Under the pieces are notes generated by a model. The model searched no databases, was not told the DNA's origin, and saw only the letters and a list, made by a program, of their open reading frames with translations. From assembly GCA_947038115.1 (NCBI GenBank), contig CAMQVF010000005.1:1-52476 (forward strand): DNA of 52,476 bases. The letters run 5' to 3'. Made by a program: the position numbers and the translations under genes. This DNA comes from an uncultured Spirochaetia bacterium (lineage in GTDB: Bacteria > Spirochaetota > Brachyspiria > Brachyspirales > Brachyspiraceae). Every line of letters begins with the position of its first letter. Position 1 is the stretch's first letter. Shown one piece after another: positions 3,112 through 26,444 of the stretch.

Positions 3112-3185
3112 TGGGCCAACAGGGGCTCGAACCCCGGACCCGATGATTATGAGTCATCTGCTCTAACCGACTGAGCTATTGGCCC
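3112..3185 (-). tRNA. tRNA-Ile (anticodon CAU, lysidine type)
   Basis: A 74-nt cloverleaf on the minus strand. The acceptor GGGCCAA pairs with TTGGCCC, the discriminator is A, the D-arm is AGCTCAGTCGGTTAGAGC, and the anticodon loop is CTCATAA (CAU). The T-arm is GGTTCGAGCC, and CCA is not encoded. The acceptor carries C4-G69 and C5-G68, the pairs known to be recognised by TilS. The anticodon stem resembles bacterial tRNA-Ile2 rather than elongator Met. It is therefore most likely matured to read AUA. A generic scan would label it tRNA-Met. Confidence 0.8.
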
Positions 3186-3382: not shown

Positions 3383-4444
3383 ATGAAAGTTAATTATTTT
3401 TCAAAGAATCGCAAAAGAAAAACGATACTAGATAAATTAAAAGAAAAAAGATTGGTATATAACGGCTTTCAATATCCACTAGGTATTATGACTGAATTGG
3501 ATAATATTAATATAGTCACCGAGGGTTGTAAAGTAGAATATCATAATACTCAATTGGGTGATATGTATTTTTACACTGTTTCTATTTCTACGGAAAAATT
3601 ATCTAGCCTTTTATTAAAGGTGCTAAAAATTTTCCCTTCATATATTACTTTAATCATTGAGCGTTCTAGTGAAGATATTAATCGTGAATATGATATTTTA
3701 TTTAGTGATCCTGACATATCGATAAAAGAGGCTAAGGCTGTTTTTAGGCGTTATGAAGAACTTTGGACGGAATGCAGTTTTGTAGGTTTTGGTGTTTTAG
3801 ATGAGCTGTCTGGTTTTGAAATATTTATAAATGTTCATAAAGAAATTGAAATGACTGTTCCTCCTAAATATTCTGATACTATAGATAAAATTTTAAATAA
3901 ATTTTCTTTGCTCGATAATGAGAATGTAAAATTTTTGTCAGAAATGGAGCATTGGCATTATTCTCTTTCTTATCTTACTTCTAGTCAAACTGGGTCTGAA
4001 AAGTGTAATTATGCTTTTGATTATTATTATATTACAAATAATATGAAAAATAGATATGGATTTAAGATTATAAATTTACATGATGACGACATTCAAGTTG
4101 CCCCACGTTGGTGGTGTACGACAGTCAAGGGTTTGGGCAAATGCAAGAAAAGAATGTTTATAACTTCTTATTATATTTTAGCTGAAACTTTCGAGGAAAT
4201 GGAAACGCTAGTCGATTTGGAAATGTCGAAACACAAAGTTGACTATTATTATATTCATGACAATTTTAATATCGACCCTGAAAGTGAGCTTAATTCTTTT
4301 AATATTATAGAAAAAAATAAAGGCTTTAAGGATGCTACTTTTGGAATTTGGGCTGAATCGGATATATTTATTTCAGACGCCAAAAGCATAGTGCCTTATA
4401 TGATTAATAAACCTTATGCGACAACATATCAAAAATCAATTTAA
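3383..4444 (+). CDS. Hypothetical protein, 353 aa
   Basis: Not recognised. The protein is probably cytoplasmic, with no signal peptide or membrane segment. It is rich in Tyr, Phe and Ile, with a lysine/arginine-rich start (KNRKRKT). Residues 60-110 and 225-320 look like alternating alpha/beta segments, and WW at about 243-244 lies in a polar region (APRWWCTT). It has its own strong promoter and ribosome site, so it is a genuine gene. Its 3' end overlaps the start of a Nudix hydrolase by 29 bp in another frame, implying translational coupling. No catalytic motif is apparent. Confidence 0.75.
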   Translation: MKVNYFSKNRKRKTILDKLKEKRLVYNGFQYPLGIMTELDNINIVTEGCKVEYHNTQLGDMYFYTVSISTEKLSSLLLKVLKIFPSYITLIIERSSEDINREYDILFSDPDISIKEAKAVFRRYEELWTECSFVGFGVLDELSGFEIFINVHKEIEMTVPPKYSDTIDKILNKFSLLDNENVKFLSEMEHWHYSLSYLTSSQTGSEKCNYAFDYYYITNNMKNRYGFKIINLHDDDIQVAPRWWCTTVKGLGKCKKRMFITSYYILAETFEEMETLVDLEMSKHKVDYYYIHDNFNIDPESELNSFNIIEKNKGFKDATFGIWAESDIFISDAKSIVPYMINKPYATTYQKSI

Positions 4445-4937
4445 ATTCTGTCCATTTTGTGGCTCTAATGACTCGTTCATATTTGATGATTTCAAAGTAT
4501 TTAATTGTTCATCATGTAAGAGAAGTTATTTTGTGAATGCTGCTGCTGCTTGTGGTGCTATCATAGAAACGCCTCAAGGTATTTTATTTGTTTCAAGGAA
4601 GTATGATCCTAAAAAAGGTTTGCTAGATTTACCCGGCGGATTTATCGACTTGCATGAAAGAGTGGAGGTGGCAATTCGGCGTGAACTTCAAGAAGAATTG
4701 ATGTTTGTGCCAGACAACTTGGAGTTTTTTGCATCGTTTCCAAATGATTATGAATATGATGGGATAAATTATACCACACTTGATTTATATTTTTATTCGA
4801 AGATAGATTATATGCCAAATGCTACGGCATCTGATGATGCGAATGAAATTTTTTATGTGAAAAGAGAAGATATTGATGTAAACTCATTGGCGTTTAAGTC
4901 GTCAATTAATATTATCAATACGCTACTTGGAAATTAA
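4416..4937 (+). CDS. Nudix hydrolase with N-terminal zinc ribbon
   Basis: A 173-residue enzyme predicted to hydrolyse a nucleoside diphosphate linked to another moiety. Residues 12-35 hold two CxxC knuckles (CPFC and CSSC) forming a zinc ribbon, as in NudC-like or NADH-pyrophosphatase-type Nudix proteins. The Nudix box is complete: G(F)IDLHE, seven residues, then RELQEEL (about 75-97). The substrate cannot be assigned; NudC-type enzymes act on NADH or NAD-capped RNA, but this protein is shorter than E. coli NudC. The start overlaps the upstream gene and has no clear Shine-Dalgarno of its own, so it probably depends on coupling. Confidence 0.88.
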   Translation: MRQHIKNQFKFCPFCGSNDSFIFDDFKVFNCSSCKRSYFVNAAAACGAIIETPQGILFVSRKYDPKKGLLDLPGGFIDLHERVEVAIRRELQEELMFVPDNLEFFASFPNDYEYDGINYTTLDLYFYSKIDYMPNATASDDANEIFYVKREDIDVNSLAFKSSINIINTLLGN

Positions 4938-4941
4938 AAAA

Positions 4942-4983
4942 GCGAGAATGTTTCACTTGAAAACAAACTCGCCTTTATTTTTT
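4942..4983. terminator. Bidirectional terminator between the Nudix gene and ileS
   Basis: Arms at 4942-4953 and 4961-4972 pair (GCGAG/CTCGC plus TGTTT/AAACA, with a 2-nt internal mismatch). An A-run lies on the left and a T-run on the right, between convergent genes. Confidence 0.65.
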
Positions 4984-5001
4984 ATAATATGTTATTAAAT
5001 T

Positions 5002-7770
5002 TTATATAACAGCTTTGGCACAACGTTCGCAAAGTTCACTATGGCTAGCATTTTTACCCACAGTCTCATAATGTCCCCAACAACGAACACATTTTTCACT
5101 TTCTGCTTTTTGAGTTTTTACAAATGATACATTTCCTTCTGTAAATTCATCATCTTTGCTGTCGCTTAAACTAACTCCACTCACGATGAAAACCTCATTT
5201 AGAGATTGAGCATTTTTTTCTAAAATATTTTTAGTATCTTCTTCTTTTAATTTAATTACTACTGAAGCTTCAAGCGATTTTCCTATTGTGCTATTGTCTC
5301 TGGCACGCTCGAGTGATAATAATACATCGTCTCTTACTTTTAATAATTTTTCCCATTCTTTTTCAAGCTCTAAATCGATTAAAGAATTATCATACTTTGG
5401 GAAGTTCTCTAAATGAACAGACGTAGCATTTTCACCTTTAAAATATTTCCAAATTTCTTCAGCTGTAAAAGCTAAAAATGGAGCTAAAAGCCTTGTAAGA
5501 TTATCAAGCATATAATATAAAACAGTTTGTGCACTTCTTCTTGTTTGAGAGTCTTTTTTATCACAATATAGTCGATCTTTAATTATATCTAAATAAGTCG
5601 CCGACATATCAACAGATGAATAATTTATAAGCCTCTGATAAAATACATGATATTCATATGCATTAATTTTTTCTTCAGAGAATTTTATAAATGAGTGAAG
5701 ACGAGATAATGCATATCTATCAACTGGTGAAAGATTTTCAACTTCAACTTTATCTGTTTCATAATTAAAGTCGCATAAATTTCCAAGTAGATATCTAAAA
5801 GTATTTCTAATTTTTCTATAACTGTCAGATGCTGCCTGCATCATATTCTCACCTATTCTAAAGTTATGTGTGAAATCTTCAGTGATGCACCATAATCTTA
5901 AAATATCAGCACCGTATTTATTTACAATATCAAGTGGGTTTACAACATTGCCATCACTTTTATGCATAGCACGGCCTTTTTCGTCTAAAACCCATCCATG
6001 TGTTATAAGCGATTTATATGGAGGAATTCCTCTTAAAGCCATTGACGGCCAGATTGAAGATTGAAACCATCCTCTGTATTGATCGCCACCTTCAAGATAA
6101 ATATCGGCAGGAAAATCGATTACGCCAGCATGAGTTTTGTCTAATGTAAATGATGATATGCCTGAGTCAAACCAAACATCTAAAATATCATTTTCTTTTC
6201 CAAATTCATCGCCACCGCATGTCGCACATTTAGAGCCTTCAGCTAGTAATTCTTTAGCCTCTAAATCGAACCAAATATCTATTCCTTTTTCGCGGACAAT
6301 ATCAGCGACCATTTTAGTCGATTCTGGTGTTAGAAGTGTATCGCCACATTGTTTACAATAGAATGCAGGAATTGGCACTCCCCAAGCTCTCTGCCTAGAT
6401 AAACACCAATCGGGTCGGTCTTTAAGCATGCTTCTCATTCTCTCTTCTCCCCATGAAGGAGTCCACTTTAAACTGCTTAATGAGTTAATAGCTTTTTCTT
6501 CAAGGTTTTCATGTTTCATATTCATAAACCATTGTTCTGTCGCTCTGAATATTAATGCATTTTTACAACGCCAACAAATAGGGTAGCTATGTTTGATTTC
6601 TTCAGTGTAGAATAATAATCCTTTTTCTTCAAGAAGAGCAATAACTTGGGTATTTCCTTTTGCTATATGAACACCTTGCATCAAAGGGAATTCTTCTGTA
6701 TATCGTCCGTCACGTCCAACTGGAGAGAGTATTTCTAAATTATATCTCATGCCCGTATTATAGTCGTCGACACCATGCCCGGGTGCTGTGTGAACAATAC
6801 CAGTACCAGAACTGTCATCAACATAGTCGGCGAAGACAACGGCAGATTCTCTGTCTATAAAGGGATGAGAAATTTTTAATTGTTTAATTTCATCCATTGA
6901 TATATCTATTAAACTTGATTCATCAAAAGCCAAGTCCATTTTAGATAAAACAGTTTGAACCAATGATCTAGCCATTATAGAATATTCATCGCCAATTTTA
7001 ACAGCAACATATTCCATCTCTTCATTAAAAGCACAAGCCATATTTGCGGCTAATGTCCAAGGAGTTGTCGTCCATATCATCACATTTACATTTTTATCTA
7101 GTTTATCATTAATCTTATTTTTTATAGGAAAACGAACATAAATCGATTTCGAAGTATGATTTTCATTATATTCAATTTCAGCAGAAGCCAAAGCAGTTTC
7201 ACAAGTAGTGCACCAGTGAATAACTCTAAGCCCTTTATATATATAGCCTTTTTCAACTAGTTTAGCGAAAACAGAAACTATTTCAGCTTCATATTCTGGT
7301 GTCATTGTAAGATAAGGATTATCCCATTCTCCCATAACACCCAGTCTTTTAAATTGCTTTCTTTGATTGTCGATATGTTTAAATGCATATTTTCTACATT
7401 TTTTTCTCATTATATTTGTCGGTGTTTCTTTATATTTGTCACCCAAAGCTTCTTGAACTTTAAGCTCAATAGGCATTCCATGACAATCCCAGCCCGGAAT
7501 ATAGGGCGAGTTGAAACCCTGCGCTGTTTTGTAACGCACAATAATATCTTTTAATATTTTATTCAAAGCATGACCAACATGAATGTCGCCATTGGCATAG
7601 GGTGGGCCATCATGCAAAATGAAACTAGGAGAATCTTTTCTAAGTTCTCTCACTTGTTGATATAAGTTTTCTTTCTCCCAATTTTCAAGCATTTTAGGCT
7701 CTTTATCTTTTAAGCCTGCTTTCATCGGAAAACTTGTCTGTGGTAAATTGATAGTTGCTCGATAATCCAT
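5002..7770 (-). CDS. ileS: Isoleucyl-tRNA synthetase
   Basis: Class I synthetase that charges tRNA-Ile in the cytoplasm. At 922 residues it is typical of bacterial IleRS. The HIGH-type signature HVGH sits near residue 65 (NGDIHVGHALN). The KMSKS loop appears near residue 600 as AMHKSDGN, a variant in which M-S is replaced by M-H. The editing domain lies between these motifs. The C-terminus carries a zinc finger of four cysteines (CVRC and CERC, about 892-917). The ATG follows AAAGGA with good spacing. It lies 91 bp downstream of dapF on the same strand. Its product is the partner of the lysidine-type tRNA-Ile encoded at 3.1 kb. Confidence 0.97.
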   Translation of the reverse strand: MDYRATINLPQTSFPMKAGLKDKEPKMLENWEKENLYQQVRELRKDSPSFILHDGPPYANGDIHVGHALNKILKDIIVRYKTAQGFNSPYIPGWDCHGMPIELKVQEALGDKYKETPTNIMRKKCRKYAFKHIDNQRKQFKRLGVMGEWDNPYLTMTPEYEAEIVSVFAKLVEKGYIYKGLRVIHWCTTCETALASAEIEYNENHTSKSIYVRFPIKNKINDKLDKNVNVMIWTTTPWTLAANMACAFNEEMEYVAVKIGDEYSIMARSLVQTVLSKMDLAFDESSLIDISMDEIKQLKISHPFIDRESAVVFADYVDDSSGTGIVHTAPGHGVDDYNTGMRYNLEILSPVGRDGRYTEEFPLMQGVHIAKGNTQVIALLEEKGLLFYTEEIKHSYPICWRCKNALIFRATEQWFMNMKHENLEEKAINSLSSLKWTPSWGEERMRSMLKDRPDWCLSRQRAWGVPIPAFYCKQCGDTLLTPESTKMVADIVREKGIDIWFDLEAKELLAEGSKCATCGGDEFGKENDILDVWFDSGISSFTLDKTHAGVIDFPADIYLEGGDQYRGWFQSSIWPSMALRGIPPYKSLITHGWVLDEKGRAMHKSDGNVVNPLDIVNKYGADILRLWCITEDFTHNFRIGENMMQAASDSYRKIRNTFRYLLGNLCDFNYETDKVEVENLSPVDRYALSRLHSFIKFSEEKINAYEYHVFYQRLINYSSVDMSATYLDIIKDRLYCDKKDSQTRRSAQTVLYYMLDNLTRLLAPFLAFTAEEIWKYFKGENATSVHLENFPKYDNSLIDLELEKEWEKLLKVRDDVLLSLERARDNSTIGKSLEASVVIKLKEEDTKNILEKNAQSLNEVFIVSGVSLSDSKDDEFTEGNVSFVKTQKAESEKCVRCWGHYETVGKNASHSELCERCAKAVI

Positions 7771-16992: not shown

Positions 16993-17066
16993 TAGCGGCG
17001 AAGGGACTTGAACCCCTGACCCTACGGATATGAGCCGTATGCTCTAACCACCTGAGCTACGCCGCC
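16993..17066 (-). tRNA. tRNA-Met (CAU), elongator
   Basis: A 74-nt cloverleaf on the minus strand. Acceptor GGCGGCG pairs with CGCCGCT (G1-U72 wobble), discriminator A, anticodon loop CTCATAT (CAU). It closely resembles the Bacillus-type elongator tRNA-Met. Acceptor positions 4 and 5 are G, so it lacks the TilS determinants of tRNA-Ile(CAU). CCA is not encoded. It lies 7 bp from tRNA-fMet. Confidence 0.85.
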
Positions 17067-17073
17067 CTTTAAT

Positions 17074-17146
<73 letters not shown>

Positions 17147-17158
17147 ATTTATCTCCGA

Positions 17159-25418: not shown

Positions 25419-26444
25419 ATGTCTTATATAGAAATAGAAGATTCGATTGCTAGAGTGAGTAAAGGGCCTTTGTCGCTTAAAGAGTCTTATAATGTATTTA
25501 AAAAGGCTTTGCAAAACCCGAGCTATTCAAATAGAGTTCAAAATGCTATAGGCACAACTAGCTTTGATACTTTTTTACAAGGTAGCATCGAGGCTAGAGT
25601 GAAAATGAAAGTGGAATCGACAAAGAAAATTTCAGATATTATTTCTTATACAGAGAGAAGTTCTAGCCGTGAAGAACCTTTATTTAGAAGTGATGCATTG
25701 TCTGGAGTTTTCAAAGAAGTTAATGAAGGTGATGAATATCCAATCACAACATATATTCCAACTAATCAACGTGTTCGATGTGCTAAATATGGCGAAGTAA
25801 TTGAAGTAACTGAAGAGATGATTTATTTTGACCAAACGAGTGAGCTTAATAGAGCGGTTGATAAATTAGCTCAAAAAGCAATAAGAACAAAAGATGACTT
25901 AGTGCTCGAGGCTTTAATTGATGGTGAAAATATTAAAAATGCTACTGGCGGAATTTATACAAGTACAATTGGTAACTTGGGTAAAATCGCTTTAACTGAA
26001 GCTGCTTTATGTGATAGAATTAAATCATTTAGACTTAGAAAAGATGACTCTGGAAACGTAATTGATGTCGCACCTAATGTTTTGATTGTAACTCCTGAAA
26101 ATGAAGTTTTGGCAAGAAAGTTACTTAAAGATATCGATTATTATGGTGTAAAAGATAGCATTAATGTTGTGCCTGACATTATGGGAGCTTCGGAACTTAT
26201 TGTGTCGGCTCGTTTGTCAGAGCTTATAAAAAAGTATGATGCAACAGTTGCTAACAATTCATGGTTTTTAATGCGAGCAAAAGAAGCTATAGTATATTAT
26301 GAAGTGTGGCCTCTTGAAGTTTTTAGTGAGCAAGATGGTGACAGCGAAAGCGGGTTTATGAAAGATTCATTACGTTATAAGACTCGTTTTTACGGTGGTG
26401 CTGGGGTTTATTGTAAAGAGCTTTTAGATGCTAGTTTTCTTTAA
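25419..26444 (+). CDS. Lone phage-type (HK97-fold) major capsid-like protein
   Basis: A 341-residue protein of about 38 kDa whose central and C-terminal parts look like a tailed-phage coat protein of the Phage_capsid_4/Mu-gpT-like kind. Visible elements: the E-loop/P-domain-like stretch SGVFKEVNEGDEYPI to KYGEVIEVTEEMIYFDQ (about 92-145), the long spine helix that follows (NRAVDKLAQKAIRTKDDLVLEAL), NVLIVTPENEVLARKLL (A-domain, about 224-240), and YKTRFYGGAG at the end. The ribosome site is excellent (AAGGAG). No portal, protease, terminase or tail genes flank it; its neighbours are cysS, an exonuclease and a TM2 protein. It could be a detached gene-transfer-agent capsid gene (Brachyspira carries the VSH-1 agent with a 38-kDa head protein), a phage relic or an encapsulin-like compartment. 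The fold call is from pattern recognition. Confidence 0.72.
   Translation: MSYIEIEDSIARVSKGPLSLKESYNVFKKALQNPSYSNRVQNAIGTTSFDTFLQGSIEARVKMKVESTKKISDIISYTERSSSREEPLFRSDALSGVFKEVNEGDEYPITTYIPTNQRVRCAKYGEVIEVTEEMIYFDQTSELNRAVDKLAQKAIRTKDDLVLEALIDGENIKNATGGIYTSTIGNLGKIALTEAALCDRIKSFRLRKDDSGNVIDVAPNVLIVTPENEVLARKLLKDIDYYGVKDSINVVPDIMGASELIVSARLSELIKKYDATVANNSWFLMRAKEAIVYYEVWPLEVFSEQDGDSESGFMKDSLRYKTRFYGGAGVYCKELLDASFL

Follow-up and report, generated by a model that had tools for sequence, protein, structure and literature searches.

A single-copy phage capsid gene among housekeeping genes of a Brachyspiraceae bacterium, probably part of a dispersed gene transfer agent-like particle

Our analysis of a draft genome from an uncultured Brachyspiraceae bacterium indicates that a lone phage major capsid gene is probably one component of a phage-derived particle that resembles a gene transfer agent (GTA) and is distinct from VSH-1. 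The genes of this particle are dispersed, with at least four and probably five locations in the genome. The window that we analyzed, 52,476 bp in length, makes up all of contig C5 in a draft genome of 1.77 Mb and 111 contigs (completeness, 99%; estimated contamination, 0.15%), and profile searches of the entire genome were combined with gene-by-gene reading of about 44% of it. As assigned by sequence families, the capsid, the portal, the large terminase subunit (TerL), and one neck protein are encoded at separate positions. These phage loci occupy four places on three contigs (C5, C9, C9, and C17) among host genes, and a fifth candidate is present on C6 (Table 1).

Table 1 Positions of the phage-related features and of the host genes flanking the capsid gene
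Feature	Position	Strand	Size	Description	Basis
Shine-Dalgarno (AAGGAG)	C5:25407-25412	+		6-nt spacing to capsid ATG	Sequence inspection
Capsid ORF	C5:25419-26444	+	341 aa	Intact; ATG start; major capsid protein, putatively HK97-type	Pfam and PHROG profiles
RNase_H_2 exonuclease	C5:24495-25343	+		Left host neighbor; adjoins cysS in G001 and Brachyspira too; outside the phage set	
TM2 protein	C5:26639-26839	+		Right host neighbor of capsid	
SurA-like chaperone	C5:26860-27828	+		Host gene ending the block syntenic with G001	
Portal	C9:27051-28403		450 aa	Lone; flanked by a 128-aa host gene and by PTS EIIA	Profile search
Connector/tail mini-cluster	C9:20352-23554		Seven short ORFs	Opposite strand to portal, about 3.5 kb away; downstream of fliN	
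TerL	C17:10094-11329		411 aa	Intact; lone	Terminase profile search
Tape-measure candidate	C6:38683-39630		315 aa	Resembles a short tape measure	By eye; without family match

The capsid protein is a member of the phage major capsid protein family PF25209 (Phage_capsid_4), as the curated cut-off was exceeded over most of the profile (E = 3.6e-21; score, 77.1 bits; cut-off, 27 bits; alignment to positions 8-251 of the 262-position profile). Matches were also obtained to PHROG 133 (4.9e-23), to three further head-protein PHROGs (all below 1e-9), and to the Mu-like gpT family PF10124 (8.6e-8), and NCBIfam models of protease/MCP fusions matched at 7e-21, yet scored under their own cut-offs. By tblastn, we detected matches in Methanoculleus virus Blf4, Gifsy-2, and lambdoid mEp213, and relatives among IMG/VR contigs and GenBank phages share only 20-29% identity with the capsid. 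A PDB profile search gave no significant match, and AF2 models built from two alignments reached pLDDT values of 37 and 43, too poor for the HK97 fold to be assessed. The gene is present as a single copy (one match in its own genome). Thus, sequence homology far above chance identifies 25419-26444 as encoding an intact phage major capsid protein amid housekeeping genes; the tailed-phage-type coat protein proposed in an earlier note is borne out by PF25209 and PHROG 133, and the full-length frame with a strong ribosome site that it described is intact, with the AAGGAG motif in place.

Around the capsid gene we identified CarD, PIN/TRAM, response regulator, cysS, RNase_H_2 exonuclease, TM2, SurA-like, sigma-54, HPF, PTS EIIA, HPr kinase, and MnmA genes, ten of the nearby genes being housekeeping by Pfam. 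No phage gene was among these neighbors, consistent with the earlier description of housekeeping surroundings with no phage gene near. The suggestion that the adjacent exonuclease and TM2 protein are partners of the capsid did not hold, because both occur in the capsid-less genome G001 (TM2 as a broken copy), the only same-genus genome compared, and because the exonuclease is conserved in Brachyspira. Elsewhere in the window, two tandem tRNA-Met genes are present at 16993-17147 and a third tRNA-Met gene at 3112-3185.

A portal profile yielded a single weak match in the whole genome (0.0016), and this ORF matched the portal family phrog_10963 at 5.5e-24 and phage portals by hhalign (97.6%). Phages with portal homologues largely bear capsid homologues as well, and relatives of both proteins share the viral contigs L003, L085, L087, L089, and L090. 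Searches of viral contigs with the portal and with the tail tube gave no relatives. L003 also encodes a phage MuF-like head protein with a topoisomerase IB catalytic domain in the same chain (3507-5582; PF01028, 1.3e-26), and a MuF-like protein on L002 carries an apparent intein-like insertion, judged by eye only (707-2167).

In the connector/tail mini-cluster, an HK97-gp10-like neck ORF (phrog_5, 2.5e-12; PF04883, 5.5e-7) and an adaptor ORF matching an uncharacterized phage family (phrog_1732, 2.1e-11) were recognized by profile, whereas no significant homologue was found for the ORFs assigned as tube, terminator, closure, chaperone, and tape measure. From their position and size and from weak profile signals, the seven ORFs are probably, in sequence, adaptor, closure, neck, terminator, tube, and chaperone G/T. 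Viral contig L084, which encodes a sibling capsid too, has its genes in this same order. When every ORF was compared with every family by hhalign, the adaptor and the neck each scored highest in their row with the matching family, but at low probabilities (13% and 5%). The final pair of ORFs overlaps in the -1 frame, and an in-phase GGGAAAA would give a 117-codon -1 extension and a 324-aa fusion (in-phase GGGAAAR occurs 19 times in the 681 kb of genes read). We take this overlap with a slippery GGGAAAA at putative tail-chaperone ORFs to resemble the lambda G/GT arrangement. The ORF on C6 is a candidate tape measure only, as it has no family match.

Other weak matches in the genome stretches read turned out to be of host origin, NusG and a lipoprotein among them. 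A search for a prohead protease/scaffold of the sibling-phage type, run without a positive control, gave no match in the genome. Genes for a small terminase, a tail tip, or lysis were likewise not recognized in the genome, about 44% of which was read gene by gene. A separate stretch, L158 (G000:C16, 159-5827), carries integrase, ParA-like, FtsK/SpoIIIE-like, and DNA-polymerase-processivity-factor-like genes and is probably a mobile element without recognized structural genes.

TerL, the one match to the terminase profile in the whole genome, lies among ABC-transporter and LysM/M23 genes and matched phrog_2 at 6.7e-52 and G20c/P74-26-type terminase structures in the PDB at 9.4e-21, being about 28% identical to TerL of Thermus phage P23-45/P74-26. 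It keeps the Walker A and B residues as well as the nuclease aspartates: G41-K42-S43, D130-E131, D252, and D258 are identical in 20 of 20 aligned sequences. Apart from one marginal partial match, TerL was found only in this genome among the 31 searched. The closest phages differ between components, with TerL pointing one way and the capsid/portal pair another.

Comparison with G001 revealed how these genes are placed. At the portal site, fliN-fliM-fliL, a 126-aa gene, EIIA, LutC, and KdsB are colinear in G001, which lacks the portal alone and has 80 bp between its neighbors. Likewise, acylphosphatase, LysM/M23, ABC permease, and ATPase genes are colinear at the TerL site without TerL alone (60 bp from LysM to permease). 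At the capsid site, G001 carries cysS, the exonuclease, a TM2 remnant, an M20 peptidase gene, and surA. The remnant (L027, G001:C6 11927-12070) has lost its first ~26 codons up to the exonuclease stop codon and is probably frameshifted, and the interval deleted is where the capsid gene sits in the present genome. This scar fits loss of a capsid-bearing interval from G001, short of proving that a capsid gene was formerly there. At none of the three sites (capsid, portal, and TerL) did short direct repeats exceed those of shuffled sequences.

Of 61 genomes searched, only the present one has the capsid; the 60 relatives that lack it include G001 as well as 26 members of genus g3 (a genus of the same family taken here as Brachyspira). 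No relatives of the capsid or TerL were found in the genome contigs searched, and the whole set is carried by one genome only. GC content and codon usage of the longer phage genes fall inside the host spread; the short closure and terminator ORFs are GC outliers, among the most AT-rich genes, yet have a high host codon preference score. The lack of a composition shift noted previously stands for the capsid, whose GC content and codon usage are host-like. By this measure, the phage set is no recent foreign DNA, though genes from a phage that infects a similar host could show the same pattern.

These observations bear on whether the genes are decaying prophage relics that were split by genome rearrangement and stay open by chance with no joint function. 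The presence of the set in a single genome is in keeping with such decay, as is its incompleteness as read (protease, small-terminase, tail-tip, and lysis genes went unrecognized). We nevertheless regard relics as unlikely, though worth keeping in mind, because intact ORFs occupy clean single-gene sites: the reading frames of the capsid, portal, TerL, and every mini-cluster gene are uninterrupted, with the TerL motifs and the frameshift site kept, and the portal and TerL are clean additions between genes adjacent in G001, unlike rearrangement breakpoints. The empty sites in G001 thus argue against fragmentation by rearrangement, and the longer genes are host-like in composition and therefore not recent.

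A dispersed particle with a role other than DNA transfer, e.g., a tailocin-like killing device, appears improbable; the tail module is present and no tail fiber or receptor gene is known, but a portal, a capsid, and a TerL with ATPase and nuclease residues would be pointless in a tail-only device. More doubtful still is a domesticated nanocompartment, in which the capsid protein alone would form an encapsulin-like shell: the gene is lone at its locus and has a strong ribosome site, yet the protein belongs to the phage family PF25209, no encapsulin model appeared among its Pfam or NCBIfam matches, portal and terminase genes are present in the same genome, and its neighbors, among which an encapsulin would be expected to have a cargo gene, are conserved without the capsid. 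Equally remote is an assembly or binning artifact that joined phage reads into the bacterial genome, for although the draft comprises 111 contigs, separate contigs show intact phage genes between host genes adjacent in G001, which argues against misassembly, and codon usage is host-like at a contamination estimate of 0.15%. Among the three options raised by the earlier note, a split-off GTA capsid locus is therefore the best, because unlinked portal, TerL, and connector/tail genes occur in the genome, and the nanocompartment and the ordinary relic are disfavored.

GTAs are defined as Caudoviricete-derived, tailed-phage-like particles with an endogenized genome, mostly vertical inheritance, and co-diversification with their hosts, which package mostly random host DNA, cannot package their whole own genome, and deliver DNA to recipients (PMC9662315). 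The loci described here are fully endogenized and lie at multiple places, as GTA genomes often do (PMC9662315), and sequence similarity to Caudoviricete proteins is seen for the capsid, portal, TerL, and neck. An ordinary prophage would form a contiguous phage block, whereas here the capsid, TerL, and portal are single and the connector/tail genes form one short block. Under the dispersed GTA-like reading, and by analogy with GTAs, the scattered units would be switched on together, and the products of the capsid (C5), portal (C9), TerL (C17), connector/tail (C9), and probably tape-measure (C6) genes would form a small siphovirus-like particle. The capsid would assemble on the portal, and TerL would use the portal to load the head with chromosomal DNA; the tail would join via the connectors, the particle would exit by lysis, and the tail would deliver DNA to sister cells, to the benefit of the host. 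Dispersal would make co-packaging of all loci implausible. We give somewhat less than an even chance to the fuller proposal of a working GTA, of spirochete origin independent of VSH-1, with capsid, portal, and terminase each uncoupled into separate housekeeping neighborhoods, invisible to prophage finders, and with no packaged fragment holding the whole set.

Dispersal of GTA genes is already known; the literature searched yielded no independent case among spirochetes that descends from other phages. If the present reading is true, GTA-like domestication has occurred at least twice in the Brachyspiraceae from unrelated phages, and its end state is a set of genes merged piecemeal into the chromosome of the host. 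Prophage detectors look for clusters and would therefore miss such a scattered set, and lone capsid, portal, or terminase genes would deserve a genome-wide partner check before being labeled relics. The empty sites in G001 offer a good case for how GTA loci scatter, gain in the present genome and loss in G001 both being possible.

Among the closest known systems is VSH-1/BhGTA of Brachyspira, from the same bacterial family, with which the present set shares spirochete particle genes and a terL apart from the structural genes. The BhGTA structural genes form a 16.3-kb cluster (Brachygtaviriformidae; PMC9662315, PMC2897892), with terL outside it and a BhGTA that is probably dispersed (PMC9662315), whereas here the head genes are single and only the connector/tail genes are grouped. 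The earlier idea that the capsid is a locus split off from VSH-1 was rejected because of the TerL type and because the capsid family is missing from the Brachyspira genomes searched: none of the 18 Brachyspira-genus genomes examined with PF25209 gave a match, the capsid is absent from 26 of 26, and TerL has no significant similarity to Brachyspira TerL, to which the G001 TerL is 52.6% identical. Since nothing found in Brachyspira is related to its terminase or its capsid, the putative particle is best read as distinct from VSH-1, the capsid contrast being drawn from the lack of homologues in the Brachyspira genomes searched rather than from the Hvp38 sequence. A capsid-like ORF of G001 was dropped as a VSH-1 marker, being found only in G001. 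The Brachyspira-type TerL of G001 (L056, G001:C9 9893-14983) directly precedes an ORF with weak resemblance to the Mu portal and others that look structural, a linkage unlike the unlinked terL reported for Brachyspira.

Beyond the spirochetes, Wolbachia and other Rickettsiales carry scattered RcGTA-like genes of unproven activity (PMC9203015; Orientia, PMC10732058), among them genes for an HK97-like capsid, a portal, and a terminase, which occupy separate chromosomal places rather than one cluster, as here. Those genes are RcGTA-like and alphaproteobacterial, whereas in the present spirochete set the capsid belongs to PF25209, the portal is lambda-family-like, and TerL is of the P74-26 type, a distinction drawn between families rather than by direct protein comparison. 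RcGTA of Rhodobacter capsulatus likewise occupies several loci, five in number, and keeps a 17-gene head-tail cluster (PMC11409702, PMC9662315), whereas capsid, portal, and TerL are all separate in our genome. Sibling capsids (20-29% identical) occur in Methanoculleus virus Blf4/L4768 and in the IMG/VR contigs L003, L084, L085, L087, and L090, most of which have portal homologues; unlike the present set, these are phage genomes, or pieces of them, in which the genes lie together and include protease/scaffold and additional structural genes.
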